Source: Morinoia aosen (taxonomy: Eukaryota > Arthropoda > Malacostraca > Amphipoda > Talitridae). From it: a stretch of DNA of 64,000 nucleotides. Positions 2,905 to 64,000 of this stretch are shown in pieces. Position 1 is the stretch's first letter; every line of letters begins with the position of its first letter. The notes under the pieces were generated by a model. The model was not told where the DNA came from, searched no databases, and saw nothing but the letters and a program-made list of their open reading frames with translations. Made by a program: the position numbers and the translations under genes. Location of the stretch: contig CM059576.1 in the NCBI GenBank assembly GCA_030386875.1, positions 67,207,581-67,271,580 of the forward strand, read 5' to 3'.

Positions 2905-3699
2905 GGTCTGATGTAGGGAGGCGATAGCACTTTTTTCGTGTGGAGAAAGTGATATTGAGTTATGTTGATAGGTATTGGGTTTGCTTTCATTGTAAATGAT
3001 GATGCATTGGTGAACTCAGTTATCAACTGAGTGTAGTTTGAATTAGGCATATCATTTTTTTGTACATTGCAGGTAGATGCTCGAAATTTTGATACAATGT
3101 ACATATGTATGTCTGTCTATGCTGACATTTTGAGAATGGACCTATCGATATTTTAGGGTGAATGAGTAATTTTCGAAATTTCTATGCATGTTTCAATGTA
3201 CGATTAAGGGTACTTTGAAATGAGCTAGAGAATTCATTTTGGGCTCATATGACGCGGAATGAAAAGCAGGGTGTGAATGTTGTTGATTATATCATGTTTA
3301 TTCATGATTGTTTGATATATGGTGAAATGAGTTGTGTTAAATGTTTTGTCCGTTATTTCGTCCGTGGAACGTGTTGTGAGCTATTTTTGTGGCAATTTCG
3401 GACATTTCGACTTGTGCAATGACCAAGCATGTGGAAAATTTAGGAAGAGTTAGACAAAAGTTCAGGGATATTGAAATGCTATTTCCAATGCAAAATTGCA
3501 AGGAATATAAAAATCGCTGCAGATAATACTTTCATAACCATACAGACTGATGCCTTCAAGCCCGTTGGTAAACTGTAGGGGGTAACTACACTGAAACTGG
3601 GTGGAAATGAGACAGAAATGATATTTTTCAGAGTTTCAAATGGATTCGAAGGTGAATGCAGTGCCCTTCGAGTATGACTAATATAAGAGCTGCAATTTT

Positions 3700-3735
3700 G
3701 CCGCTCAACGAGGTGCGTAGCACTCGTTGAGCGGC
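3700..3735. other. Conserved stem-loop, type A (U1)
   Basis: Outer stem GCCGCTCAACGA with TCGTTGAGCGGC, one bulged G, inner stem GTGC/GCAC and a GTA loop: 16 bp in 36 bases. In RNA this would be a stable hairpin on either strand, but it is too short for a typical miRNA precursor. Confidence 0.7.
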
Positions 3736-3776
3736 TCGAGAAGTCAGATTTAATTGTTTTAAGCCTTGAATTTGAT

Positions 3777-3790
3777 CGCGCGACGGCGCG
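3777..3790. other. Second small hairpin CGCGC-GACG-GCGCG (U1)
   Basis: A 5-bp all-GC stem with a 4-base loop, 42 bp after the main stem-loop. It is unchanged in all nine complete units although flanking bases differ by type (TGAT before it in A, TAAC in B). Confidence 0.55.
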
Positions 3791-4563
3791 TTCCCTCATT
3801 GTGAACCCAATGAAGATGAACAGGTGTCAATGTTGTTTTATTAAACGAGAATTATCTTTCGTTTTGATGTGGCATTGCGATGGCATTTTTATTTTGTGAT
3901 GATTTTTATGTTATTAAGGATTAATGATTGTTTTGTTGTACAATGGAGCAAGATTGGATGATTTAAGGGCTCTGCATGAATAAGTTAGACGCCATCTGAT
4001 GTATGTAAATGTTACGCTCATTCGCATCATTTATTCGTGGAAAGAAAGATATTCAGTATTGGGTTTTTGAGGTTCATTTCAGGAATTATTGATAGTAATT
4101 GGATGTGTCAAGAAGTTGGTGAATATTTTGCGTTTTTTGTGGATTATTTTAAATGAATTTTCAGAACGAAAGGATATTGCTCCCATACGAAAGGGAGTAA
4201 TCAATTTTGAAATGAGAAGTGGCTATTTTTGTGGGTTTCGGGAAGACTAATTTTCGTGCGTCTGGGTTTGGGGAAATTTTGAATAGTTTTGGTAGAATTT
4301 CGTTATTTTTTGAACCGCATGTATAAGTGAAATTTGGAATGAGGCTCATGTAATTTAAACTAGTTATAGGTAACATGTAATGTGTTCTGGTGGGATGAAC
4401 GATCATATTGATAGTCTTGTAAGCGTTTTTGACCTTAGGTGAATTCGCAATTTAATTTCAAAATGTCATTCTCCCACGACTCTGTAAATAATGTTGTTAC
4501 GAAAGTTTCAGTCCCGCTTCATATAAGGGATTTCTGTAATTGTAAGTTTTGATTTAGGGGAAG

Positions 4564-5368: not shown

Positions 5369-5866
5369 GGTCCGCCCCGGTCTGTGCTGGTTTCTGTGCG
5401 CCCGGCGGACCCCTCTGCGACATTCCGGTGAAAAACCAAGACCCATACGCGCACCGATTCGAAGAAGGATGAACACCACTTACCCTAGGGGCCGCGCTGG
5501 CGTTCACCGAAATGGTGTTATACCCCGACGTGTCGTCCATGAATAGGGTAGCCCCTCGAACGCGTCGTCGCAGCGCCTTCAAATTTGGCAGGCACATAAA
5601 AGGCCTTTTGGACACGAACCTAAGCTTTTTTCTCGCAGATCGGGCGAGAACTTTTCCTTTAATGGCGGTTCAAAGGTCAAAAATCGACCAAAATGGGTCA
5701 TTTTCAAACTGCTGCCAAACACCCATAGAATGCCTCTAGGCGGCTATAATTTCAGCGTGTGGTAGACGAAACAATGGAGCATGCGCCAACGTTGCCATTT
5801 TGCGATCCGTTCGTAAAAAGTATCCCTCTTTGCCCCTCAAAGTTGACGAAAAATTTTTAGGGTAAT
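5369..5866. other. GC-richer head, type A (U1, 498 bp)
   Basis: Opens with inverted repeat GGTCCGCC (5369-5376) and GGCGGACC (5404-5411). CpG-rich stretches follow (GAACGCGTCGTCGCAGCGCC at 5558). Two copies of the CCCCTCRAA motif lie at 5549 and 5830. A plus-strand frame is open to 5739, but a T insertion relative to U2 (GTGTTATACC) breaks its upstream part. No function recognised. Confidence 0.75.
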
Positions 5867-8800
5867 TTTGACGAAATTTGGAGACTTTTTTTGAGAAAAC
5901 CACGCACTTTAAAACTTTCAAACTTTGATAGCTCGTACATTTCCAAAATTTCTACGCATCATGAAATCAACGGCTCTCGAAACGATCAAGTTTCCACACA
6001 ACTTCGGGTCAAAGTTTTCCTAAAAATATTTGGACAATTTTGGTGAGGCGGGAGTTTTGCCCTGAGTTCGACGGCAATACCTGTGGCTTTCAAACTTTGT
6101 AGTCTCGTTCAGAAAGCTTTGTAATATACCCAGCGAGTTTTACAGAGTGCCAGCTATGAAAACTTGAGTGGTGCGCAACTTTAAAGTTCAAGTAAAAAAA
6201 CGCGTTTTTTATAAGGTCATTTTCGAACGCCAGTTGTGACGTTGTTTGATCGATTGGTGACTTGAAAATTTGATACGACCTATTTTTAACCTTTTTCTCA
6301 AAGTTATCAAGTTGACAGTTCATCATAAGCGAAACTTTTTTCAATAAATGGTTCCAAACACAACCCCCAACACCCCCAAAAAACGTTCCGAACATGTTTT
6401 TGGAAAATGGGGGTGACCTACGAAAAACTTCATTTAACACTTTGTGCTCGGTTTTTCGTCGTGCATTCAAAAGTTTTTGGGCGGGTTGAATTTCGGCTTC
6501 GTTTGAGCGTGAGACATTATTTTCACTTTTCCAGGCCATTTTTGCCTTTCCTTCGCCCCTGAACCCCACTTCCTCACCTTCGAGGGAGCTGAAAATCACT
6601 TGAAAGATGCGTCTTGAGGAGATCTTTCGATTGATACTCGTGTCTCAAAGTTGTAGGCCTTCAACTTTTTGTTAAAATTTGAAAAAACATCAAACCTTAG
6701 GGAGGAATCGCAAAAATTTGCCAATCTAGGGCAAAAACTGGATACCAATCCACCTTGTATTGAAGTCTCCAAAATGCGAATTTTTTTTAATGACTGAATT
6801 TGGGGCCTGAAATGGAACTTTATTGAGTTTAAAGGTTTTATATAGATGCCCATTTTCATGAACTTTATGCTGTGATGTTTTCGATTGCAAAACATTATAT
6901 TTAAATGAATTGTTCAAGTTGAAAGTTTTTCCTGATTTTTTTGTCATTCTAGGCGGTTTTGCGTACTTTTAAGAGCTGAACTGTGTTCTTAGAGTTGAAA
7001 TAAAATTATTAGGACTCGCGAGTCAACTTTCTAAGTGGCTTATTTCACCTTGAAATTCTTATAAATTTTTTACATGACGCGAAATTCATTAATTTAGAGT
7101 GTTCATATTCGTTTCACAGGAAATTTTATAGAGAACAAATGTGTTTAAAATAGGCGATTTACCTTATGGTACTATTATTTTCCTTCCAACAAGTTTAAGT
7201 AGAGGAAAAAAAAATTTTGTTCTTCATTTGATTTTCGCCAAAGTCGAAAAAATTTGGATCCATTTCGATGTCTAATTGCAATATGTCAATGAGGTACAGA
7301 ATTTGAGGCTCAAATCTTCTGCTGCTTGTAAAAGTTGTAATGTAAAAGATGTTCACAGAGTTTCAACTACTGGTATGGCCTAAAGTGTTCCCATAATCGT
7401 AATAGGTAAGTCAATTGACGTCAAATATAACTGATATTTGTAATCGATTTGTTAACCCTCGAAAAAATTGTATTCGGAATTCTTAGAAAATTATTTAAAT
7501 GGTATACTCTTTGATGAAATATTGCTTTTAAATGTAGAATTCGATAGTTAGGAGAATACATACTACCGTACATTAATGAAAGAATGCATGGTAATGTAAG
7601 GAAGATAAAGCTTGTAATTACTTACCAGATTATTCAAGGTGCAAGGAATGAATGCTCGAGTGAACCTTAATGTAATATTTTCGAACATTTTGAAATATAA
7701 TGTCATGTCTGTCGGGAAGAGGAACTTCTTGGAGGTGTTGAAGAGATTGGGATTTTGGGTAGTGAAATTCACGCACAATTACCTACTCGTTTGGCTGAAG
7801 GTGTGACCATGATAGTATTCGCAAAGTAATGGGAGGTCAAACATGCAAAGTGATTAATTTTCGACGCAAAAATTTGTCGCAACTAATGACCTATCAGTTA
7901 TCATAGAAATTGTATTATTTTGGCTTCCATTTTTGCGGTATGTGTAATTATTTGTAGGGTTTATTGTTTGCAACGAAAATAAAGCGCATTCTTAAGACTT
8001 CCAACTGCATTTGGTATTCGATGGTCGAATTACTCCTGAGAGACGCGGACTGGCGTATGGCCTTTATGACCTTGATACCAAGCAAGATGGATAGAAAATA
8101 GTTATTACTTGTTTATATAACTCCTTTCTATTCATGTATAACTCATTTATGTATGTCAAGCTTCGTTGTTAGTTGAATCTTTGCCTTAAATACTTAGATA
8201 TTGAGTGAAGTAGGAACAGCATTTTTGACTTGAGTTACCCCTCGAAGCCGTGCTTAATCAGGAGGTATGTTCAGTCATTTTGAGACACTGTACAACTTTG
8301 GGTGGTGATTTGAAAAAGAAAACGAAAGCTTCTTTAAAGGTTCCATATGTCGGTGAATTTTAGAGAAATATTTGTGGTATTAAATGGAAATATTATCGGC
8401 ACATGAGTCACAAATACCTCTGTACGAGAATTTAAGATATGAAATAAGTCGCATTTTAACATAGAAAATGGTGCTTAGTCGTTTAGGCGGTGTAAAGCAG
8501 TGAAGCTATTGAATATGATGGAAGGATGTATTCTATTATGTTTTTCGGGAGGTAAATTGAACATTTACGGATTGAAATGACGAACATGAATTCATATTAG
8601 AATTATAGAAATGGCTCTTTCACCTATTTCGATGCCGAAATTTGAATGAATCTTTAATGAGGACTCACTTCATGTATGTCAAGCTTCGTTTTTGCTTCAA
8701 TGTTGTCTTTAAAGATGTAAATATTGAGTAAATGCATAACAGAATTTCTTACTTGAGTTACCCCTGAAAGCTCTCCCTTGAGCAGTGCATGTTTTCAGTT

Positions 8801-9699
8801 AGTTTGAGATGCACAATGTCTCTTCATGGAAAGAAAACTTAAATTTGATGTTCGCTAAATCACTCATTTCGCATAGATCATGGTTGCAGTTTGCACGAAG
8901 CGTGCGGTCTGATGTAGGGAGGCGATAGCACTTTTTTCGTGTGGAGAAAGTGATATTGAGTTATGTTGATAGGTAATGGGTTTGCTTTCATTGTAAATGA
9001 TGATGCATTGGTGAACTCGGTTGTCAATGGAGTGTAGTTTGAATTAGGCATATATTTTTTTGTGCATTGCAGGTAGATGTTCGAAATTTTGATACAATGT
9101 ACATATGTATGTCTGTTTATGCTGACATTTTGAGAACGGACCTTTAGATATTTTGGGGTGAATGAGTAATTTTCGAAAATTCTATGCATGTTTAAATGAA
9201 CGATGAAGGGTACTTTGAATTCAGGTAGAGAATTCATGTTGGGCTCATATGACGCGGAATGAAAAGCAGGGTGTGAATGTTGTTGATTATATCATGTTTA
9301 TTCATGATTGTTTGATATATGGGGAAATGAGTTGTGTTAAATGTTTTGTCCGTTATTTCGTCCGTGGAACCTGTTGTGAGCTATTTTTGTGGCAATTTCG
9401 GACATTTCGACTTGTGCAATGACCAAGCATGTGGAAAATTTAGGAAGAGTTTGACAAAAGTTCAGGGATATTGAAATGCTATTTCTAATGCAAAATCGCA
9501 AGGAAGACAAAAATCGCTGCAGATAATACTTTCATAACCATACAGACTGATGCTTTCAAGCCCGTTAGTAAGCTGTAGGGGGTAACTACACTGAAACTGG
9601 GTAGAAATGAGACAGAAATGATATTTTTCAGAGTTTCAAATTGATTCGAAGGTGAATGCAGTGCCCTTGGAGTATAACTAATATAAGAGCTGCAATTTT

Positions 9700-9735
9700 G
9701 CCGCTCAACGAGGTGCGTAGCACTCGTTGAGCGGC
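9700..9735. other. Conserved stem-loop, type A (U2)
   Basis: Identical to the U1 hairpin, arms and loop. The second small hairpin follows at 9777-9790. Confidence 0.7.
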
Positions 9736-10724
9736 TCGAGAAGTCAGATTTAATTTTTTCAAGCCTTGAATTTGATCGCGCGACGGCGCGTTCCCTCATT
9801 GTGAACCCAATGAAGATGAACAGGTATCGATGTTGTTTTATTAAACGAGAATTATCTTTCGTTTTGATGTGGCATTGCGATGGCATTTTTATTTTGTGAT
9901 GATTTTTATGTTATTGAGGATTAATGATTGTTTTGTTGTGCAATGGAGCAGGATTGGATGATTTAAGGGCTCTGCATGAATAAGTGAGACGACATCTGAT
10001 GTATGTAAATATAACGCTCATTCGCATCATTTATTCGTGGAAAGAAAGATATTCAGTATTGGGTTTTTGAGGTTCATTTCAGGAATTATTGATAGTAATT
10101 GGATGTGTCAAGAAGTTGGTGAATATTTTGCGTTTTTTGTGGATTATTTTAGTGAATTTTCAGAACGAAAGGATATTGCTCCCATACGAAAGGGAGTAAT
10201 CAATTTTGAAATGAGAAGTGGCTATTTTTGTGGGTTTCGGGAAGACTAATTTTCGTGCGTCTGGGTTTGGGGGAATTTTGAATAGCTTTGGTAGAATTTC
10301 GTTATTTTTTGAACCGCATGTATAAGTAAAATTTGGAATGAGGCTCATGTAATTTAAATGAGTTATAGGTAACATGTAATGTGTTCTGGTGGGATGAACG
10401 ATCATATTGATATTGTTGTAAGCATTTTTGACCTTAGGTGAATTGGCAATTTAATTTCAAAATGTCATTCTCGCACGACTCTGTAAATAATGTTGTTAAG
10501 AAAGTTTGAGTCCCGCTTCATATAAGGGATTTCTGTAATTTTAAGTTTTGATTTAGAGGAAGCTATATAATTTTGAGTAGGAAAGGTTGAATGACTTTGT
10601 GTAAATTGATGAGAAATAAGGATGGACGGTAAGTTAAATGGAATACAATGAGAGTGGTGAAAAATGCAACCAAAAAATTGGATACATGAGGTTATAAAGT
10701 CAGGTGAGGATAAAATTGGTTATG

Positions 10725-10802
10725 CTATGTTTGATTAGACTAGGTTGGGTTAGATTACTTGAGGTTGGGTTGAGTTGGTTATATTATTTTGGGTTTGGTT
10801 CG
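10725..10802 (+). repeat. TTAGG-like G/T-rich tract (U2)
   Basis: Same layout as in U1, with TATGTTTGATTAGAC at the start, so the first TTAGG-like unit is mutated. Confidence 0.4.
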
Positions 10803-11266
10803 GAAGTGATTGGTGAACTTATTGGTTGAATTGTGATTGGTGTAGTCATTTTAACAGAGAAGATCTGATTGATTTGTTGAGGTTGTGTTACTCATGAAAA
10901 ATGTTAGTTACCCCTCAAAGCTCTTCTCCTGCAGCGCATATTTTCAGTTATTGGGATATACACCGTGAAAGTTCCCCGATAGAAAAGAAATTTGAAAATT
11001 CAGTGTGTAACCGATGTCTCTTAGATCAGTGTGAAAATTTGAGAGATCACGGTCTGTGAAATGATTTTTAAACTGTAAATATGGGATTAGGTTACGTATT
11101 TATTTGGTATTTGTGAATGGTGTGGGGAAAAAAATTGATTTTGGTGTTTTAAAGGTAAACGTAGAAGTTCGAGGGGAATTCATTGTACACATCGGTTTGT
11201 GATTTGAGACGATGGTGTATCTGATTGTGTTGGCCAATTGTGGTTATTTTTTAAAGTGTGCCCTAC

Positions 11267-11337
11267 ATGTGTATGTGTATATGTGTGTGTCTGTGGGTGT
11301 GGGAGTGTGTGTAAGAGTGTGAATGTTTGGGGTGTTG

Positions 11338-11369
<32 letters not shown>
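11267..11369. repeat. GT microsatellite (U2)
   Basis: Includes the longest uninterrupted TG run of the array, about 16 dinucleotides ending at 11,370. Elsewhere it is interrupted as in U1. Confidence 0.92.
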
Positions 11370-11371
<2 letters not shown>

Positions 11372-11866
11372 TCCGCCCCGGTCTGTGCTGGTTTCTGCGC
11401 GCCCGGCGGACCCGTTGCGATAATCCGGTGAAAAAACCAAGACCCATACGCGCACCAATTCGAAGAAGGATGAACACCACTTACCCTAGGGGCCGCGCTG
11501 GCGTTCACCGAAATGGTGTATACCCCGACGTGTCGTCCATGAATAGGGTAGCCCCTCGAACGCGTCGTCGCAGCGCCTTCAAATTTGGCAGGCACATAAA
11601 AGGCCTTTTGGACACGAACCTAAGCTTTTTTCTTTCAGATCGGGCGAGAACTTTTCCTTTAATGGCGGTTCAAAGGTCAAAAATCGACCAAAATGGGTCA
11701 TTTTCAAACTGCTGCCAAACACCCATAGAATGCCTCTAGGCGGCTATAATTTCAGCGTGTGGTAGACGAAACAATGGAGCATGCGCCAACGTTGCCATTT
11801 TGCGATCTCTTCGTAAAAAGTATCCCTCTTTGCCCCTCAAAGTTGACGAAAAATTTTTAGGGTAAT
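11370..11866. other. GC-richer head, type A (U2, 497 bp)
   Basis: Inverted repeat at 11370-11377 and 11405-11412. Variant CCGTTGCGATAATCC follows, shared with U5. Lacking the extra T of U1, it has one plus-strand frame open from 11,323 to 11,739, ending in SNCCQTPIECL. The N-terminal part of that frame is GT-repeat translation, so coding is doubtful. Confidence 0.75.
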
Positions 11867-15697: not shown

Positions 15698-15733
15698 GCC
15701 GCTCAACGAGGTGCGTAGCACTCGTTGAGCGGC
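15698..15733. other. Conserved stem-loop, type A (U3)
   Basis: Same sequence as U1 and U2. Upstream it shares CCCTTGGAGTATAAC with U2 and U6. Confidence 0.7.
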
Positions 15734-21477: not shown

Positions 21478-21513
21478 GCCGCTCTGCGAGGTGCGTAGCA
21501 CCCGTAGAGCGGC
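21478..21513. other. Conserved stem-loop, type B (U4)
   Basis: Arms GCCGCTCTGCGAGGTGC and GCACCCGTAGAGCGGC around a GTA loop. Relative to type A, A-T became T-A, A-T became G-T (a wobble in RNA), and a T-to-C change moves the bulge from G to the neighbouring A. The paired length is kept. Confidence 0.7.
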
Positions 21514-27266: not shown

Positions 27267-27302
27267 GCCGCTCAACGAGGTGCGTAGCACTCGTTGAGCG
27301 GC
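27267..27302. other. Conserved stem-loop, type A (U5)
   Basis: Type A hairpin in a unit whose front half is type B. It therefore bounds the B-to-A switch, which lies between the B block at about 25.6 kb and this point. Confidence 0.7.
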
Positions 27303-33288: not shown

Positions 33289-33324
33289 GCCGCTCAACGA
33301 GGTGCGTAGCACTCGTTGAGCGGC
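33289..33324. other. Conserved stem-loop, type A (U6)
   Basis: Unchanged hairpin even though flanks in this unit carry many single-base insertions. Just after it GAGAAGTCAG reads GATAAGTCAG. Confidence 0.7.
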
Positions 33325-37050: not shown

Positions 37051-37142
37051 ACTTGTTGATTATATGTCATTGGTAAGAGAATAACATGCTGCTGTGACTT
37101 GTTGATTATATGTCATTGGTAAGAGAATAACATGCTGCTGTG
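37051..37142. repeat. 46-bp direct tandem duplication in U7
   Basis: Two adjacent copies, 37051-37096 and 37097-37142, each starting ACTTGTTGATTATATGTC and ending CATGCTGCTGTG. U4 has a single copy at the matching place (about 19,504-19,550). The copies are identical, so the event is recent. Confidence 0.9.
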
Positions 37143-37609
37143 ACACTGCAGTCATTTCGGACGGTGACGTGTTACATGAGGTTTTCATGAAATAGATACA
37201 AAAACATGACATAAGTTTTTAAATGTGGAAAGTGTGACGTTTCTTTAATGAAACGAAACTTGAAAAGAAGTTTTTAATATTGTCTAATGAAAATGAACAT
37301 GATACGCAAATTTCAAAAGATGAGAACTCGCCAAATTTCGTAATACAAAGAGAAATTATACATTTCGTAGGTTTATTACTTTCTCAAAGGTTTATTCGAT
37401 GGTCCAATTACTCCTCAAAGACGCGGACTGCCGTGGCCCTGATGGTATGGATACCAAGCAAGATGGATACTTAATAGTTATTATTTATTGATATAAGTCG
37501 TTACTATTAATGTATAACTCATTTATGTATGTCAAGCTTCGTTGTTACTTTAATGTTTGCCTCATATACTTAGATATTGAGTGACGTAAAAGCAGCATTT
37601 TTTACTTGA

Positions 37610-39079: not shown

Positions 39080-39115
39080 GCCGCTCTGCGAGGTGCGTAG
39101 CACCCGTAGAGCGGC
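39080..39115. other. Conserved stem-loop, type B (U7)
   Basis: Identical to the U4 hairpin. The second hairpin CGCGC-GACG-GCGCG follows about 42 bp later. Confidence 0.7.
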
Positions 39116-44876: not shown

Positions 44877-44912
44877 GCCGCTCTGCGAGGTGCGTAGCAC
44901 CCGTAGAGCGGC
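44877..44912. other. Conserved stem-loop, type B (U8)
   Basis: Same arms as U4; the base before the stem differs (AATTAGG instead of AATTATG). Confidence 0.7.
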
Positions 44913-50662: not shown

Positions 50663-50698
50663 GCCGCTCTGCGAGGTGCGTAGCACCCGTAGAGCGGC
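50663..50698. other. Conserved stem-loop, type B (U9)
   Basis: Intact type B hairpin directly after the divergent patch, while bases just before it have changed (GCTGTAATGATG). Conservation resumes at the hairpin block. Confidence 0.7.
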
Positions 50699-52818: not shown

Positions 52819-54950
52819 TTTGACGAAATTTGGAGAACTTTTTTGAGAAAACCACGCACTTTTAAACTTTCAAACTTTGATAGCTCGTACATTTCCAAAA
52901 GTTCTACGCCTCATGAAATCAACGGCTCTCGAAACGATCAAGTTTCCACACAACTTCGGGTCAAAGTTTTCCTAAAAATATTTGGACAATTTTGGTCAGG
53001 CGGGAGTTTTGCCCTGAGTTCGACGGCAATACCTGTGGCTTTCAAACTTTGTAGTCTCGTTCATAAAGCTTTGTAATATACCCAGCGAGTTTTACAGAGT
53101 GCCAGCTATGAAAACTTGAGTGGTGCGCAACTTTAAAGTTCAAGTAAAAAAACGCGTTTTTTATAAGGTCATTTTCGAACGCCAGTTGTGACGTTGTTTG
53201 ATCGATTGGTGACTTGAAAATTTGATACGACCTAGTTTTAACCTTTTTCTCAAAGTTATCAAGTTTACAGTTCATCATAAGCGAAACTTTTTTCAAAAAA
53301 TGGTTCCAAACACAACCCCCAACACCCCCAAAAAACGTTCCGAACATGTTTTTGGAAAATGGGGGTGACCTACGAAAAACTTCATTTAACACTTTGTGCT
53401 CGGTTTTTCGTCGTGCATTCAAAAGTTTTTGGGCGGGTTGAATTTCGGCTTCGTTTGAGCGTGAGACATTATTTTCACTTTTCCAGGCCATTTTTGCCTT
53501 TCCTTCGCCCCTGAAGCCCACTTCCTCACCTTCGAGGGAGCTGAAAATCACTTGAAAGATGCGTCTTGAGGAGATCTTTCGATTGATACTCGTGTCTCAA
53601 AGTTGTAGGCCTTCAACTTTTTGTTCAAATTTGAAAAAACATCAAACCTTAGGGAGGAATCGCGAAAATTTGGCAATCTGGGGCAAAAACTGGATACCAA
53701 TCCACCTTGTATTGAAGTCTCCAAAATGCGAATATTTTTCAATGACTGAATTTGGGGCCTGAAATGGAACTTTATTGAGTTTAAAGGTTTTATATAGATG
53801 CCCATTTTCATGAACTTTATGCTGTGATGTTTTTCGATTGCGAAACAATGTAATTAAATGAATCGTTGAAGTTCAAAGTTTTTTTTAATTTTTTTCCATT
53901 GGAAGCGATTTTGCTAAGTTTGGAGTGTTTTAATGTGTTGTTAGAGCTCATAAAAATATATTGTATTTCGAAGTAAACGTTGTAAGTGCCTGTTTTTGCC
54001 TTGAAATTAATAATTTTTTTTTGCATGACGCGTAATTCATAATTTTCAATGGTTTATATTCGTTTCACAGGAAATTTTATAGAGAACAAATGTGTTTAAA
54101 ATAGGCGATTTACCATATGGTAGGATTATTTCACTTCCAACATGTCATGGTATGGAAGGAAAAATTTTGGTTCCGCGATGAATTTTTCTCAAAGTCCAAA
54201 ACATTTTTACGCAAGTCGACTTCCATTTTCATTACCTCGTTGAGGTTCAGAATTTTAGGCTCGAATCTTCTGCTGCTTGTAGAAGCTGTAATGTAAAAGA
54301 GGTTCAGCAAGTTTCACGTACTGGTAAGGCGTTAAATGTCAACATCATCGTCTTCAGTGAGTAACGTGAGGTGATTGGTTGTAAAGGATTTTTGGAATGG
54401 ATTAGTTTACCATGAAAAAATAGTGTTTCGAATTCATAGAAAATCATTTCGATGGTATACTCGTTGATTACATATGTTATTAAAATGTAAAATGTAATAG
54501 TTAGGAGCATACATACTACCGTACATTCTTGAGAGAATTCCTGGTAATATAAGAAAGATAAAGCTTGTAATTACACACCAGATTTTGAAAGGAGCAATGA
54601 AATAATGCTCCCGTTGACCTGACTGTAACATTTTGTAAGATTTTGTAATATAAGGAGTTGTAGGTCGGGAAGAAAAACTGCTTAGAGGTGTTGATGGGAT
54701 TGTGATTTTGGCTAGTGAAATTCCACCCAAATTCACGTACTGGTATGGCTGAAGGTGTGACCATGATCGTCGTCGCAGAATAATGGGAGCTCAAACATGC
54801 AAGCTGATTATTTGTAGACGCGAAAAATTGTCCGCAATGTCGTTTTCGTTTTGAGAGGAATTTGATTCTTTTGCCTTCCTTTTGTGCGGTACCGTAAATA
54901 ATTTTTACTGTTTTACGGTTGCAACGAAAGCAATGCGTATTCGTAGAGAA
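52819..54950. repeat. Partial terminal unit U10, right edge of the array
   Basis: Type A to about 53.82 kb, then B-like to about 54.15 kb, then clearly more divergent from every other unit. Recognisable homology ends around 54,943, after TTGCAACGAAAGCAATGCG, which corresponds to about 7,963-7,990 in U2. Decay in the outermost copy is expected where homogenising exchange fades. The missing remainder is about 3.8 kb. Confidence 0.88.
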
Positions 54951-56811
54951 TTTCCGAAATGGAAGCAAATTCGAAGTTATTCAAGTTCAAATTTATCATA
55001 TGTATAGATTTGAAGCATCCATGGGTACTTCTCTTGCGGCACATCATTCTGTTCCTATTAGTGTGGTGTTTTAAACCGCGTTTAGACGTTGTATTGTAAA
55101 GATTTTAGGTATTTGACTAGCCGCGGGAACTTGAATGAAATGAAATAAGGGTAAGAGATGAAGTTGAATGTTATATTATCGCGTTCTTAAAGGTTATAAT
55201 ATGGGTCACAAAACAAGATTATAGGAAGAGCTATCTGAAAGGGTCGAACAGTAGATACTTAAAATGTAATGGGAGCGTTGGTTACATATACCTGTACATT
55301 TTATGTAAATGAATAATTTACGGATAATGTTTTATTAAGTATTGCTCGTGTGTTACGGAGCAATAAAGAGAAAGTAACAGGTTTTAGATTGGAGGACACT
55401 GTCTCCGACACTGTCGGGCTTCAAATTTCATTTCGGCTAAATCGTATGGTAAGCGTGTTTGATGATGTACAAAAGTGTTTGAATAACCTGATTGGATTTA
55501 TGAAAGTTTCGTTAGAAAAGGGTAAAAATCACATAGACTCGATTTATGATTGTTAGAGCATTTATTGAGTCGGAAATCATGGCAAGGCTTATGTGTTTCA
55601 CAGTGGCACAGAAAGTGTGCGAGTAGATGAAGAAATTCATTACCCTCCATGCACAATATAATAGAGGGTGAAATATGATACGTAATGGGCATAACACGTT
55701 TCCACTTTTTGCTCTATGCCTTCGTTCATTGCCATAATTTTGTTATGGATTTGTCTCTTAGAGCAATGTGTCATTATTTCCAGAATAAAATATTTATCGG
55801 ACCGTGCTGAGAAAGTAGTTTTTATTTTATTTTGAACCTCAATTTCTATCGACATTGACGCATTCACCGTGGGAAAAAATGTGCATGTGATAATGATTGC
55901 AGTTGGTTTACTTCATGTTTTAATAGATGTAGATTTAGGTTACGGAATTTTCATACTTACATTGGACCGTAGTCATTGCCATATGAATTTACGTAGCTCA
56001 AGTTCGAAACGTGTGAGAATTTAACGGCTACGTCGTTTTGTGTAATAGAATAATAATAATGAAGGGGGTTAACGACAATTTCGGTCAATGACTATTTAGT
56101 TGTCGCTTTGGTAGTTGACCAGAGTTACCTTCGTCTTGATAAGTGATAAACGTTTCCGTATTGATGCAATTTGGATTTAATAGCAATATTAAGAGTATCT
56201 TACGCCCGGTATACAAATTTCATGAAACGAGGAGCTCGCACACGCAACCACGCTGATAGATCATAGACACGAAAATTTGGAGCGTACCAAAATTATTCCT
56301 GTGCTTGAGGATGATCGTAAAGAACGTATAGTTTCTTTGGTGAAACCATTTCTACGCAATTTTTCAGGTGAAATCATTCTTAAACCGTCATAGCGTCCTG
56401 GTGTTTGTTATTGGCAAACCAATGTACAAGAATAAGAAGTTTAGGGTTACGTTTCTACCAGGGTCGCCAACAACTTGCAAGTATGGACCCCCCTAGCCTC
56501 AGGTAGTAGTAGTAACATAGATTTACTAGCGCTTTAGTAGCTCCGACTATTTCGCGCCGAATGTCTCATGGTTTAAAAAAGATACCAGGATTCTACATCA
56601 CGTCCGAAGTAGTATTATAAGAACATTATTTCGGTGGTCAACTCAATTTCTATTGCCTCAACACACACAGTTATATTTGTTTGCATAAGCACATGACGAT
56701 ATCTCACTCAATAAGCAGGATCCTTTCTACAGGTCGCACCTGCAAAACGTATCGGTATACAGCGCGAGTTGATACAAAACGAAGATTTTTAAAATTTTAG
56801 CAGGGTAAAGA
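54951..56811. other. Unique flank, no gene recognised
   Basis: Non-tandem AT-rich DNA. Its longest plus-strand frame (55350-55556) has no recognisable motif. No tRNA, splice-site cluster or terminal repeat is evident. Composition becomes a little more balanced from about 56.2 kb. Confidence 0.6.
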
Positions 56812-57125
56812 GTGCGAGAACAGCTGGGACCCCAAATCGGAGGCTCCAGCTACCCCGCCCACACTATGGCCGAGCGTCTTACCCACGCTGGAACCCCCTC
56901 ACAAAGACAAGAGTGGCAGCACGGTACGCTCAGGCATTCCTTCTCCTCAAGTTATAACTTCGGCATGATTTTGCACTTGCAGAGTGCACACAGAATTCCG
57001 TTTTCTGGGCATAAAAGCTCGTTATATTTTACTAATCAAATCGCTTCGTGCAAGAAAGGTCGCTAGCGCTCCGAGGTTGAAACGAGCACGGAGGGGCTCA
57101 CGAAGCATCCCAATGGGTAGGTAAT
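56812..57125. other. GC-richer patch, possible transposon fragment
   Basis: Contrasts with its surroundings (for example CCAGCTACCCCGCCCACAC and GAACCCCCTCACAAAGAC). An A-box-like TATGGCCGAGCG resembles the start of tRNA-Leu or tRNA-Ser, but no B box sits at the right distance, so a tRNA or tRNA-derived SINE is not supported. The open frame 56812-57066 has no known motif. Confidence 0.3.
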
Positions 57126-57943
57126 CACAGATCGGCTATGCGATCGCATTATGAGCGGCGAGACTTGCTACAGACAACTGGATTAAGCAATGTACAAGTT
57201 GATACGTCTATGGATTATAAATAGGGCTATACTATGCGAGAAATACTCTATAAGTTAGGTTAAGGAAAACAAAGACATCACGTTTCAAGATATGGCAGGG
57301 AAGGATGTTGTCAATGATGACGTGACTGAGATTCGAGTAATTTTTCTCGATAAGAAAGAGGTGTACCTAATAACTGCCATATCCTGAACTGTGATGAAAT
57401 ATTTATTAAGGTGCAGTCACGTCGAAAGGATGCGACGCAGTCTTCTCTCCTCACACGAGTCCGGAGGTCGTAGACGCGGTCGGAATCTGCAATTGGTGTG
57501 ACAGGTTCAGTTCATTTATCGTGATTGATTTGGAAAGCTGTCGAGTCTTTTTGACATCACATGCAGGATATGAGAATTGAAAAAGCTAACAATAAAATTT
57601 GGGATGCTTAGAAGTAACTTCGAAAGATAGATGGAAATGATATGTTAAGATGTTGTGACGATATGTACATCAAAAACAATGATATAACTGATTACAAGCG
57701 CTGCTAACCAGACTAGAATAGTGGCAAGACCACTGTCAGTATTGAAACTGTAGGCGTGCACAGTAGCAAATGAGAACGATGAGGCGTCCATGAATTTACT
57801 TGACTGCTCGCTTTAGCAAGAAACGTTTAAGTTGTAGGAATTGCACCATGTTTCTACTTCTGGCATTTATGCATAATCTTGCTCGAGAGCAGTTGCCTTT
57901 ATTGGGAAAAGTACTGTAACTTTGTATCCATAATATATTAAGA
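57126..57943. other. Intergenic stretch, nothing recognised
   Basis: No open frame of note, no repeats longer than a few bases and no RNA gene seen. Base composition shifts to purine-rich on the plus strand near its right end. Confidence 0.5.
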
Positions 57944-58639
57944 GTGTGGAGTCGTATATATTTAGTGAAGCAGGAGGTAGGGTGTCATATGTGTGAAACA
58001 AGGTCCATTGAAATGTTTATTGGAAAGAAATTGATGCGTTTTCTAGCAATGGAAATGAAGGAACAGATAATTATGAGTATAAACAGCCGTTTTATGAAAG
58101 TTGAAGATAAGAAGGAAGTGACATTTGTTTACCCCAGAATAAATGAGAATGAATGAAATTTTCTCTTGTATTTGGAACATAAAAGCAGGTGTTTCTTCTG
58201 TGGAAAGAAAGAAGAAAGCATCCTAGATGTAGATATAGATGCCTTGATGAGAAAATTGGATGTGAAAGTGGAAGAAGTTTGATGAAAGTCGTTGCATGGA
58301 AATATTGCATGGAATCGAAGCAACACGCTTACTGCTGCCGTTGACTTGACGATGACAGAAAAAGAGAGGCTGTTAAATGTAACTCACATGAATCCAAAAA
58401 GGAAGTGTTGGAGACGAGCCGTGCTGCACGTTGTTCAGGAGTCTGCTCTGAACTTCATGCGTCGTCGTCGACGCGGTTTTCTGGCACAACCTGAACACAA
58501 AACGAGCGTTTACGAAATGGAATGGTCACATTGGTTTAAAGGTTACAAAGAGAAGCAAGAGAAGGATGTCACAAGAGTTGTAGTACCAAGTAAATACTGT
58601 GGCAAGTTACGAGGGTATGCTCATGGGAGTGGAAGTTGA
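57944..58639 (+). pseudogene. Decayed reading frame, possible retrotransposon remnant
   Basis: One frame runs 232 codons with only three interruptions before the final stop: TGA at 58154 and a TGA TGA pair at 58280-58285. It contains two Cys-x2-Cys pairs (CHMC early, CFFC after the first stop), a basic MRRRRRG run, and near the end VVVPSKYCGKLRGYAHGSG. The last resembles the VVP...Y...LLKLAHD stretch at the start of the Ty3/gypsy integrase zinc-binding region, but the expected GHLG does not follow. No start codon is convincing. It could also be chance in purine-rich DNA. Confidence 0.2.
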
Positions 58640-60884
58640 ATTTCAAGTAGTAGGTAATACTTGAGAAACAAAAGAAGGATCAACTAATTCCCATAGTTAA
58701 TTAGAAAGTAAGTCGCAATAGCAATGTGCCGAAAGTGAAGTAAAATCTCAAAGTTGTTGAAATTCCCGCGTGGCTTTAAGTGCGCGAATGAAAGTAGGTT
58801 CGCAGATTTTGCCTGAATTTTGTGTGTTGATGATGATGATGGAAGGGTGATATGATAGTTTTGCAAACATTGCATTTAATACTTAGAATATAATGATATA
58901 CAACTTTGGATAGATCGCCATAATGCTATGAATGGAAGTATTGTAAATACTGACTGTTAAGTGGATGATTTTGAGAGGAACATGAGAGAGACGAGCATGG
59001 AGGGCATTTTTGATAAATATAGGTGCTAGAGGGGCGGTTTGCATTACATCGAGAAGAAGTAGTCAAAGGTTCTACGTCAGGTCCTGCAAATGGACAGATG
59101 CAGGGGTACATAAATATGGGAAGAACAGCAGCAAATGAGGCGTTTCGTTCACTTTGTCCATGTTCAGGATGAAAGAGGAAAAGAGACAAGGATTAAAGGT
59201 GCATTTTATTCAGTTGAAGTGGTAATGTCACGAGACATTATGAGAAGATTAGAATTTGGACCTGAGTTTGCTAGAAAGTGGTGTCTTCATGTGACTGAGG
59301 CGGCTAGGAAAAGTGCGATACCGGGATACGAAAGGGGACGTACAATGTCATCAGGACATACATGGTAAAGTAGGTGAAGAAAGAATTTATATACTTGGAC
59401 GGAAAGAACGTGTACAGGTTATGACTATCCTTGTAATTGTTTGTCAAGATGCTTTAGTGTCATTAAAGGATATTTTATGAGATGGTCGAGTAGGACATTA
59501 TTGAAGAAAAGAGCAATCTATGTACAAGGTGTTTGTTGCCACACATTTTCTCTGTGACTAGAAACTGCAACTTACGGGAAGAGAGAAGAAATGACGAAGA
59601 ATGCAGGACAATAGGAAGAAAAGAAAGCAGGGAAGACAAAGTTTCTTTGGAAACCTAGTATTACTTTCTTCGGGGACATATTTTATTGGATAGGAAGTAC
59701 AAACTGAATGAACATAAGGAATAATTGCGGAGAACATTAATAAAGAACAAGAATGTGAATGCTATAATAATTTGAAAAGAACAATGTCGTAATATGGATA
59801 GAAAAATATGTGATAAATTGAAATAGAAATGATATGGTTGGCGTGGCGAGCATATTACCGCCAGGTGAGATGTGAAGGTTGTGTGACAGCGTCATAGAAT
59901 GTTTAAGTTAAGAATGGTTTCGCAGGATATAGGGACGACATAGATATTGAGGAGGGACGAGAAATGAGCCACCAGAATATTATTGCAAATAAAAATGTAC
60001 ATACATATCTCTCTCAATGTATATCTCTCTCCATGGAAGATTTGGATGTGGATTGTACCGTTGTACAATGTTGGAGCATTTGATGCACTGCGCAGCTTTC
60101 AGTACAAAATAGTTAACATGTGAATTATAGTTCGATAACAATATTTTATGATTTTTGATAAAGTTCAAGCAATTTCTGTGCAGATGGATCCTAGGAATGT
60201 GGAGGAATAAAATAACAAAGTTCAAGTGTTAGAATGCAATTTGGACGGATTAGCATAGGTTGAATATTGGGTCAATGTTATTCCGAAATGAAAGGGAGTT
60301 TGCAAACATTTCTTTAAAAGGCGCTGATGAAATTTTGTAGAGAAATGAAACGAAGTTGTAGAGTAAGTCCTCAACTTAGTAAAGAATCAAGAAAGAATGG
60401 AGAAATGGAACAAGCAAATGACCATGAAATGTATAACCTGGTCAGGAGAACGAAATGTTTAGAATATATTTGTGTCAGTGTATACGAGTATTTGAAGTCA
60501 TGTATGGAAATATAGAAGGTGAATATTGTGTGATTTGTGAAGAACAAATGGTAGAAGTGTATATTATGTTGACATGTAGATAAATCTTGTATGAAGTCAA
60601 AATGATTTATTTTGATTTCTTTAATTACGCATATGTGAACTATATTTGGAGTTTATTTCAGAGCGTTGCGTAAAATTGTTTACAAATTTGACAATTAATT
60701 TCAATGCTAGTCGTAGCAAATGACATTAATGAAATAGAGAATACAGGTCAGGTGAAATGCTAAGGTATGTAAATGAATGATGTTCGATTGTAGGCGTGGA
60801 TATGAATAAGAATTTAAAGCACGCATTGATGTTTCCTTTTGAAATTTCTCATCAAATTGGAATGAAATTAAGATTTGGGTGTAG
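58640..60884. other. Purine-rich flank, no gene recognised
   Basis: Strongly A/G-rich on the plus strand (for example around 59,580-59,640). A frame at 59135-59368 has an ATG start and is in the same phase as the decayed frame upstream, but many stops lie between them and its product has no recognisable motif. Short frames elsewhere are not convincing. Confidence 0.5.
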
Positions 60885-60924
60885 GTGAGAAATCAGAAAT
60901 TGAAACAAAAGGACATACCTACGA

Positions 60925-61092
60925 GAGCGTACAGGAGCAGCAGTGCAGCAGGAGCAGCAGTGCAACAGGAAGACGAGTGCGGCAGCGCAGCACTCAGGAG
61001 GCTGTCAGTGCCTCAGCTGTCACAGGCGCAGGCAGTGAGAGACGACGCTAGTTGGCCAGTTTTGAGTCTGTGTTCTGAAAATGGAAGGAAAG
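60925..61092 (+). other. CAG-rich GC island, possible leader exon
   Basis: Compositional outlier made of GCAGCAG/GGAGCAGCAG words followed by non-repetitive GC-richer sequence. It ends with ATGGAAGGAAAG immediately before GTAAGG, a good match to an insect 5' splice donor (exon/intron boundary 61092/61093). It could be a first exon with a short coding start, or the leader or LTR part of a retroelement. No partner exon was identified. Confidence 0.25.
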
Positions 61093-63417
61093 GTAAGGAA
61101 AGACATTGTGGTTTTGATCAAGTTAGATTGCTTTGCTCCAATGTTCGTTATCATAAATGAATCAACGGTCATTATTGCTGAAGAGAAGTACAGCATGTGC
61201 TGTGTCACTTGAGCATCGATTTTCAAGCATTTTGTATCATTTAATACATGAAAAATAATAAAGAACGTAGTTATGTTCTCTGCAAATGTTTTCTTACAAA
61301 TATCACTATGATTATGATTTGTGTAGTTTTAGTTTTCGTAAATGGTTGCCAAGTTTAATTGCCGCAGCGAAATAGGACAGAGGGCAATATGAGCAGGAAG
61401 AAATGGGAACTTGTCAGTGAAGAGAAATATTTGTTGCTGCTAGGTGTAAGATGAAATAAATATTTAAATGAAGAGGCACTAAAGAAATTGTACAGGAGAG
61501 AATACATTGTGTCTTTATTGAGTAACGTCTTCCTATGTGTGTATTTATTCTTATTCCTACTGAGAGAAATGAATATCGCTTGTCAATGGAGTTGTTCACA
61601 TCATACATGTGATGCCTGAATTCAAACTTGCGGAAAATACTTTGACAGACATCATGGTATTTTGGGACAGGCATCATTAGATTAGTTTTGCTAGTACTAG
61701 ATTTATAGTTTTGGAATCATTTTCTTAGAAAACACCAGTTATTTATTGAGAACAGCAAATGACTGGAGAAATTTTGAGAAGAGCGGTAAATATATTGATC
61801 CATTCTGGCAAGTGAAAATATGGTTAACTTTGATGCGGATAAAGAACCTAAATTTCCCAGTGAGATATGATTAATATACGTGCTGCAATAAATATCAAGC
61901 TGTCTAATTTCATACTTGGTAGCTGCAGCATTAGTGTGTAGCAGGTGTTTGGGTCAGCATCAGCAGTGTAGGCCCAAGGTGTTTGAGTGGAGAATAATCC
62001 AGATATAGTGTTTTCAGAGATTTTTTGGTATGTAGGAGGCAATTCTTCAGATGAGAGAATGTCCCACAGAAAAACAATATAAGTGATATTTGCATATTAT
62101 AAAGAAACACTGAAAAATGAAGTGAGCTATTAGGAAAAAATGAAATATATATCTGAAGAAAGGCAATGGTATGGACTTTAGTAGAAGGTATTTGATTCTA
62201 TGATTATAAGTACTTGTGAAATCAATCCACTCAATGGAAAATACGTTTAATTCACAATTGCAATTTTGTTATACATTTAGGAGAGAATTGAATGTAGGTC
62301 AATTATGAAAGTAATGTAAGCCATGAATGTAAGTGTCTAATTCAATTGTTGTAATAGTTATTGCATTTATACAGAGCAATTTTAAATCAGTTACTGAATG
62401 ATAAAGTAATCGTGAAGGATTGAATGAATGTATATTGTAGGTTTAATTCATGAGCATAAAGGGAATTTTTAAGCATGACAAGATCGGCGAAGAGAGGGAC
62501 TCATTTTATTAGTTGGAATATTGCATCAAGCAAGTCATCAGTGTTTAGTTTGACCAGGTTTAAGATGTTTATTTTATATAGTGAGCTATGAATACTTGTA
62601 TTGTTGAGGAAAATGAGTAAGGATGCTAGAAAAGCAATTGCACAAGTTTGAGGATGCATACTCACGGTTGGGCTATTGGCTTTTAGAACAGCAGCAATGT
62701 GACAGATGAACAGAGGATGGTAAGAGCACCATTAGGAGCCACCACTGAAGGAGGGCAGCTTGCAAGCGTTTTGTGTACGAGGAGCATCATTCTGACGTGT
62801 AGCCCAGGCAGGGATGAGCTGGACCAGAAGTCAGAGTTGGGCTTGGAAGTTCTGAAATGAAGATTATATTGAAGCCAAAAATTGAAATGAGACAGTAGGA
62901 AAGTTTCAAAATGATGTTGGTCAAGAGATATTGCTATGTTAAAAATGATGAGAAGTAGTATTTAACAGTTGAGTTATGCATTCATTTGTTAAAGAATACA
63001 GTTATAATAACGACATATATAAATTAGAATCTCAAAGAAATAAATAAGGAGAAACCCTCATGAAATGTCAGTATATTCTCAACCTAATGTAGAAATGGAC
63101 TAGTACAAACATGATAATGAGGTATGAAATGAACACATTCATTTGTGATAAGGTGAATTATTTCAAAATTATTTGACATGTTGTTCAGGAAGGAAGGATG
63201 CAGGCATATGTAATTAGGCATCAAGGAAATGTACACAATCTATTCAATAAATTTACCAAAAGATACGAAATGAACAAACTATGGAATATAGAACTGGTTA
63301 ACAATACAAAGTTCACAAAGAAAGACCAAGGGGCTGTTAAGGAAGATAGCTGTGAAATGGAATGAATGGTATGTATAACACAAAATACATTATTGATTAA
63401 TTATTGAAAAGAGAGGG
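61093..63417. other. AT-rich flank, no gene recognised
   Basis: Long AT-rich stretch with only short frames and no motif recognised. A slightly more GC-rich part (about 62,690-62,850) has no open frame of note. Confidence 0.5.
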
Positions 63418-63458
63418 TATGTATATATATATATATATATATATATCTATATATAGAC
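63418..63458. repeat. TA microsatellite
   Basis: About 12 TA dinucleotides, one interruption (ATCTAT), then a few more TA. Self-complementary and likely length-variable. Confidence 0.92.
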
Positions 63459-64000
63459 TCTAACAAGCAAGGTAAATAGTGAAATGTTTTGGTTAGAGAT
63501 TTGGTATTCGTGGAGGAGAGGACAATAATTAATGTTCCCAGTTTGGCTGCCTAAACATAGTGAATTAGACATTAACCACTTTTGTTCTATAGATTTTTTG
63601 GGGTAAATGAGTATTTAAAGAGTTATAGCGCTAGGTTAAATTTTTTGTTCCATAGCAGTAATATATTATAAGCCAAACCCGCAGAACCTGAACTCACTTT
63701 TAGGATGTTTTACTTATAACTCAAGTAAGGTTATGACCCAAATATAAGATGTTATAGGAATTTGTTTATTTTTGTCTTTGATGGCTAGAATGCGCTCGAT
63801 CATTTGAGAGCGTTGGAAGGAAAAGTCCATTGTATTTTTTGTCTGCACGATTTATTATGTCTTCAAACACTTGAGTTGCGGTAATTGATCAATATAATTT
63901 GTTAACAACTAAGTTTCCTTGGAAAGTGAATAGAAGAAAAATTATTGATTTAGATCTGATGAACTATGTTTAGGCACTGAAAAGTGGATTTTTATTATTG
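63459..64000. other. AT-rich right end, nothing recognised
   Basis: No frame or repeat of note. A 20-odd-base stretch near 63,590 (TTTTTTGGGGTAAATGAGTA) resembles TATTTTGGGGTGAATGAGTA of the array, but the similarity does not extend. Confidence 0.5.

Follow-up and report, generated by a model that had tools for sequence, protein, structure and literature searches.

Large gene-free repeats tend to be regarded as passive, and the locus described here raises the question of why one of them should carry the same short stem-loop in copy after copy. The window that we analysed is a stretch of 64,000 nucleotides (C21:67207581-67271580) from a 1.99-Gb genome in 29 contigs, and its positions 1-54945 are occupied by arrayed units, which measure 5.8-6.0 kb and fall into two main types, A and B. 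A sequence-only reading of this DNA had claimed that every complete unit contains a 36-base hairpin with one bulge and a GTA loop, and alignment of the units bore this out in nine of nine cases (Table 1), the hairpin of the first unit, U1, having 16 pairs.

Table 1. Positions in the window of the stem-loop, its preceding motif and the repeat unit that carries them.
Feature	Position	Strand	Basis or remark
24-base motif TATGAYTAATATAMGWGCTGCAAT	3673..3696	+	ends 3 bases before U1 hairpin
Hairpin U1, type A	3700..3735	+	alignment, folding
Rest of block	3736..3882	+	alignment, folding
Unit junction	5370..5410	.	right end GTCCGCCCCGGTCTGTGCTGG joined to left end TTTCTGTGCGCCCGGCGGAC
Complete repeat unit holding U2	5391..11391	+	TTTCTG left end to GCTGG right end
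Hairpin U2, type A	9700..9735	+	alignment, folding
Hairpin U3, type A	15698..15733	+	alignment
Hairpin U4, type B	21478..21513	+	alignment
Hairpin U5, type A	27267..27302	+	alignment
Hairpin U6, type A	33289..33324	+	alignment
Hairpin U7, type B	39080..39115	+	alignment
Hairpin U8, type B	44877..44912	+	alignment
Hairpin U9, type B	50663..50698	+	alignment, folding
Motif copy in right flank (type C)	61866..61889	+	followed by different DNA, weak hairpin only

The stem-loop in the window

The type A hairpin, GCCGCTCAACGAGGTGCGTAGCACTCGTTGAGCGGC, is found in five of the nine units and the type B hairpin, GCCGCTCTGCGAGGTGCGTAGCACCCGTAGAGCGGC, in the other four. The two differ at positions 8, 9, 25 and 29, and pairing is kept at every difference, exactly as had been described from the sequence: pair 8-29 goes from A-T in type A to T-A in type B, pair 9-28 from A-T to G-T, and a T-to-C change at position 25 shifts the bulge from G to A. 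Equally sound was the observation that the hairpin of U9 is unchanged in spite of its diverged upstream DNA, as it is identical to those of U4, U7 and U8 while U9 is only 66-82% identical to the other units in 100-base windows over about 3250-3640 (U1 numbering). In all nine complete units the order is the 24-base motif, three bases and the 36-base hairpin, and in the eight units other than U1 the motif keeps this position and shows one difference from TATGACTAATATAAGAGCTGCAAT or none. The three bases between motif and stem vary from copy to copy (TTT, TAT, TAG, GAT, AAT). With up to three mismatches the motif occurs at 525 places in the genome, and its reversed pattern at 6. Among the matches listed, 20 motif places are of type C; as a candidate for a second hairpin built on this design, the stretch that follows the type C motif was folded and gave -6.7 kcal/mol (z -1.6 alone and -2.6 with the motif). 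A second GC-rich inverted repeat, CGCGCGACGGCGCG, lies at 3777-3790 of the window and is unchanged at the same place in all nine units, and a minus-strand frame that runs through the hairpin is open across the block in eight of nine units, with a stop in U1; that of U2 had no Pfam match.

No other local structure in the unit examined comes near the hairpin in stability. Types A and B fold at -27.6 and -30.1 kcal/mol, with 16 pairs each; in U2 the hairpin segment reaches -28.8 kcal/mol against -13.8 for the next best 40-base segment, and the best segments of 20 dinucleotide shuffles of U2 average -14.7, with an extreme of -18.3 kcal/mol. Taken together, motif and hairpin give z = -5.3 (A) and -6.1 (B), with none of 200 shuffles as low. 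Random mutants with four changes (20,000 per setting) keep 16 pairs in 1.2-5.2% of cases and fold no worse than the real A or B partner in 0.03-1.9%, the figures varying with the direction of change and the mutation model; the argument from A/B pairing is, by itself, a modest one. The whole block (3673-3882) also folds better than shuffles (z -3.8 and -4.0), and a structured RNA of that length was considered and rejected; because the stems predicted outside the hairpin differ between A and B, we do not claim further stems in the rest of the block.

The host repeat and its spread

The repeat that carries the hairpin has fixed ends and a unit length of about 5.8 kb, and was found about 500 times in the genome, on at least 27 of the 29 contigs, in head-to-tail arrays as well as in dispersed copies. 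Head-to-tail joints, the first of them at 5391, read GTCCGCCCCGGTCTRTGCTGG then TTTCTGYGCGCCCGGCGGAC, and near-identical junctions follow at 11392, 17391, 23166, 28959, 34985, 40769, 46554 and 52343 (first base of the next unit). Genome-wide, the right end was matched at 413 places when three mismatches were allowed, and its controls at none. One copy, L142, is a single unit whose flanking DNA has no match in the window. When the expected ends of eight dispersed copies were read, the right end was present in six of eight windows and the left end in three of eight; the remaining end windows held unit-internal or foreign DNA, and many dispersed copies are therefore truncated or interrupted. TT follows seven of eight right ends (dispersed copies including L141 and L142). 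At 20 places picked by the right end the block was present in 12 and absent in 8, so a copy of the repeat can exist without it. Another unit type without the block was seen at L211, L216, L218, L220 and L221, which share 361 identical bp at five places on five contigs, and L217 shares 263 bp of this type at 99.6%.

No genes are visible in the unit. The longest stop-to-stop frame listed has 184 codons; a Pfam search of five frames gave no match above the cut-off, and ARAGORN found nothing in the window. Searches of the literature by subject rather than by sequence or organism, covering few subscription papers, returned no paper on this repeat.

Types A and B are 70-88% identical, in 100-base windows, over roughly 3590-4290, and outside it much of the unit is about as similar between types as within them. 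Strong differences are in fact confined to certain stretches (window 3593-4290, 5425-5574 and 5972 onward), and for this reason the units look like mosaics of exchanged pieces. On a larger scale, nine clusters among the matches listed (on C5, C9, C13, C15, C19, C21, C23, C24 and C27) have block A' at 22,804-22,822 bp from block C, the exceptions being C4 (22,216 bp) and a second place on C15 (23,477 bp), and neighbouring C motifs on C23 and C24 are separated by 45.7-45.9 kb. Over about 3 kb, type A loci are 86-100% like the window unit; block order and spacing recur between chromosomes, where some stretches are 99.7-100% identical. Part of the identity of the hairpin is thus recent spread of copies, and because ordered blocks were copied between chromosomes, the array copies are not independent.

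Conservation of the stem-loop across the genome

We read the hairpin in 199 records, which represent 191 distinct places after de-duplication by hand from coordinates (L033, L038, L043, L049, L060 and L070 each repeating a place read in another record, and the window units U1 and U3 being L003 and L030). L001-L030 were chosen by similarity to the block; L031-L100 by the exact degenerate motif, four of them being of type C, without this hairpin; L143-L182, L199 and L200 by similarity to diverged copies; and L203-L222 by the right end. L101-L140 are 40 places picked by hand, isolated ones preferred, among 100 listed exact anchors about 640 bp from the hairpin, a choice that was blind to the hairpin itself. 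By place, the hairpins comprise consensus A (80), consensus B (77), C33T (13), T8.T29 (3), A8G (2), B with T25 (2), AA.C.TT (2) and twelve variants seen once each. The sequence-only reading had named, as the pattern that would speak against it, further copies with the stem broken as often as the flanks; what we found was a broken pair at 8 of 191 places and none at the other 183. Three of these eight are T8.T29 (L096, L163 and L164), and the others are L153 (G34T), L165 (C10A), L173 (G4A and G35A), L175 (C22G) and L209 (C24G). Broken copies made up 0/30 of the sample chosen by block similarity, 1/66 records of the exact-motif sample, 0/40 of the anchor sample, 6/42 of the diverged sample, 1/12 of the right-end sample and 0/7 of the other window units. 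Among the matches listed they sit at isolated places, in a pair 44 kb apart on C18 and in one small cluster on C20, and none is in a large array.

That the hairpin is constrained beyond its flanks is well supported. Exact copies of 26 bases of the hairpin, two of them two-letter positions, were found at 440 places, and no reversed control matched, on a denominator of about 505 blocks (525 motif places minus 20 of type C). For a 24-base control anchor about 640 bp distant the denominator is another set, 480 places with three mismatches or fewer, of which 279 are exact. Parsimony on a tree built from the flanks only (112 haplotypes) counts 27 changes on the 36 sites of the hairpin (0.75 per site), against 75 in the next 36 bases (2.08) and 44 in the following 36 (1.22); upstream, 37 fall in the 25 bases before the motif (1.48) and 62 in the 25 before those (2.48). 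The motif has 27 changes on 24 sites, a count lowered by sample selection. Comparisons of hairpin with flank give p from 4e-8 to 0.03, the weakest being that with the second downstream stretch (0.03). In an early part of the exact-motif sample, 5 of 36 hairpin sites vary among 37 type A copies and 0 of 36 among 9 type B copies, compared with 12 and 10 sites, respectively, in the next 36 bases. The hairpin is kept better than the surrounding DNA, and this therefore suggests that the repeat needs the folded shape.

Compensation and single changes in the stem

Pair 8-29 occurs as A-T, G-T, T.T and T-A, and pair 9-28 as A-T and G-T. Next to B-like flanks we found A8-T29 with A9-T28 (L176, L199 and also L173, which has other breaks), A8-T29 with G9.T28 (L177), T8.T29 with G9.T28 (L096, L163, L164) and then T8-A29 with G9.T28, which is type B. 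A stepwise path between A and B via wobble and mismatch intermediates is plausible, and a single conversion tract from type A (T25) fails for L176 and L199, because C25 is kept between their changed arms.

The claim that covariation marks selection on RNA structure survives in part: constraint beyond the flanks and the wobble and mismatch intermediates speak for it, but only one of 15 pairs (8-29) is doubly changed among 19 distinct hairpins. The covariation score is 0.115 against a shuffled mean of 0.072 (sd 0.009), and paired cells are 97.5% against 94.9% in shuffles, with 0/500 as high in either case, in a test in which relatedness alone can beat all shuffles; the number of doubly changed pairs, on the other hand, is no more than chance (485/500 shuffles as high), as is the number of pair types (318/500). 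Sliding the partner by -3 also gives one doubly changed pair, in 7 cells versus 6 in the true pairing. On a flank tree of 46 haplotypes, picked by hand from the 112, positions 8 and 29 each require four changes and the pair as a whole six. Trees on which T-A arises once are rejected with L170 included (AU p = 0.0002) and not without it (p = 0.18), and L170 looks recombinant, since B-like bases follow its hairpin yet it groups with type A; there was therefore perhaps only one compensation. One compensation is safe, and more than one is possible.

By hand count, 5 of 11 single stem changes keep pairing (the eleven being C3T, G4A, A8G, A9G, C10A, C17T, C22G, C24G, C33T, G34T and G35A). A kappa of 1.08, as fitted on the flanks, puts the neutral share at 0.19 and gives p = 0.04; p becomes 0.05 if A8T is counted as a break, 0.13 with kappa 2 and 0.31 with kappa 4. 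Loop and bulge, with 8 of the 36 sites, account for 9 of the 27 changes (p = 0.13), a share that becomes 9 of 17 without pairs 8-29 and 9-28 (p = 0.012, an exclusion chosen after seeing the data). Plus-strand wobbles account for five of seven stem transitions (p = 0.23, not significant), and the two wobbles that have grown common, G9.T28 in type B and G4.T33 at 13 places, are both on the plus strand.

Comparison with known elements

A search of the whole window with Rfam at gathering scores gave no matches, and the earlier statement that no family with this sequence was known to the reader stands in that no Rfam family reaches its cut-off. Like structured RNAs in Rfam, the hairpin has a stable stem with one compensatory pair; unlike them, it stays below every family's cut-off. 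An Sm site just before the stem is conserved at the 3' end of Sm-class snRNAs and SL RNAs, and we take AAGAGCTG and AATTTTG before the stem to resemble the context of a histone 3' stem-loop or of a U7-like or other Sm-type RNA; these candidates were rejected, as the bases just before the stem are unconserved and nothing was found in Rfam. The degenerate hairpin pattern had no match in viral contigs, nor the block in plasmids, both collections without ordinary eukaryotic chromosomes.

The repeat as a whole resembles Helentron-type non-autonomous elements. HINE/DINE-1 elements are described as dispersed and without coding capacity, with inverted repeats near both ends, a microsatellite and TT at the insertion point, some having internal tandem repeats and the group including whole-element tandems (PMC4067079, PMC7492417). 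By the definition in one of these papers, they carry subterminal inverted repeats, 12-15 bp long in general and 13 bp in DINE-1, have a palindrome or stem-loop near the 3' end and prefer to insert at TT (PMC4067079). The repeat studied here is alike in being dispersed and without visible genes, in its microsatellite and in the TT that follows the right ends, which agrees with the preference. It too has inverted repeats near its ends, but the perfect match between GGCGGAC on the left and GTCCGCC on the right is limited to 7 bases, flanked by G+C-rich bases that are similar but shifted. It differs also in the place of its conserved hairpin, which lies inside the ~5.8-kb unit, some 1.7 kb short of the right end. 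Helentron and HINE elements are not known to make target duplications, and none was seen by eye at the three places where both ends were read (L142, C15:71.39M and C12:98.83M). Because inspection by eye showed no 3' palindrome within the 12 bases that follow the right inverted repeat, we do not file the repeat under Helentron. The genome has at least 150 matches to Helitron_like_N (150 scored of 289 candidates), compared with none in 14 control genomes; two 3.5-kb Rep loci contain neither GGCGGAC nor GTCCGCC, although these loci may stop short of the element ends. Long-period satellites and higher-order repeat arrays form another known class, with which the repeat shares head-to-tail units and a higher-order plan, and from which its fixed ends and single copies with unrelated flanks set it apart.

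At L223 (C5:4606430-4616400) the right 1.57 kb of the unit is joined to other DNA, with the same joint in L204, 1.28 Mb away; the adjoining DNA of L223 has, by eye only, reverse transcriptase- and endonuclease-like frames on the opposite strand. L203/L204 was considered as an autonomous partner and rejected, being read as a truncated copy beside another element.

Possible roles of the stem-loop

The explanation that we favour, tentatively and at somewhat less than even odds, is that a selfish repeat depends on the hairpin for its propagation, as a cis-acting stem-loop that acts more probably as RNA. The copies that spread would be those whose hairpin works, and selection would therefore act through propagation of the repeat. 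Less certainly, the working form would be a folded single strand of plus sense, more likely an RNA copy than single-stranded DNA, because wobbles possible on the plus strand only have become common; a factor encoded elsewhere might recognise it. RNA and single-stranded DNA both tolerate G.T, and a double-stranded palindrome would also keep pair 8-29.

It seems to us on the unlikely side, in fact, that the hairpin is such a palindrome, bound by a dimeric protein beside the 24-base motif, with nothing folding at all. Pair 8-29 would then be kept as symmetry, the recurrence of the motif in type C without this hairpin is what a binding site might show, and the G4A and G35A changes of L173 are wobbles on the minus strand only, so such changes occur too; however, G9.T28 and G4.T33 break the symmetry and are common nonetheless, and the bulge offsets the two half-sites. 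More doubtful is a role as single-stranded DNA in Helentron-like rolling-circle copying, for example at the start of the second strand. The fixed ends, the TT after most right ends, the direct head-to-tail joints and the abundance of Helitron_like_N matches in this genome are consistent with it, but the hairpin does not lie at the right end, and no Rep-encoding element with these ends was found in the right-end count and the two Rep loci. We consider it improbable that the hairpin has no function and is an old palindrome that seems conserved since most copies are recent or homogenised. The recurring block order, the near-identical stretches and the existence of places with a broken pair would fit, yet changes per site in the flanks of these copies are 1.6 to 3.3 times those in the hairpin, and the exact-match rate of the hairpin is well above that of the anchor. 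Precursors of small RNAs usually have stems longer than 16 bp, and a short-hairpin or miRNA-like precursor is very improbable here in spite of the stable short hairpin and a miRNA model being the best sub-threshold Rfam match in 3550-3950, as that match scores 18.6 bits against a cut-off of 61 (E = 0.36).

Returning to a stem-loop needed for propagation, a broader proposal, which we regard as a long shot, starts from a kind of non-coding mobile repeat that has not been described before and can spread either unit by unit or in ordered blocks of several units, about 46 kb in size. Motif and stem-loop together would be the signal for its replication or amplification, and selection would see the hairpin as RNA or single-stranded DNA. 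More generally, a structural part under selection inside a large gene-free repeat would mark a signal on which its spread depends and would open that signal to testing.

Other features of the window

An open frame at 58286-58639 had no Pfam match, and its end may resemble the integrase region of a retroelement. The array contains a perfect 46-base tandem duplication, in two copies, at 37051-37144. The right flank beyond the array (54946-64000) is itself repeated, as four 3-kb loci around the type C motif are 99.7-99.9% identical to it.
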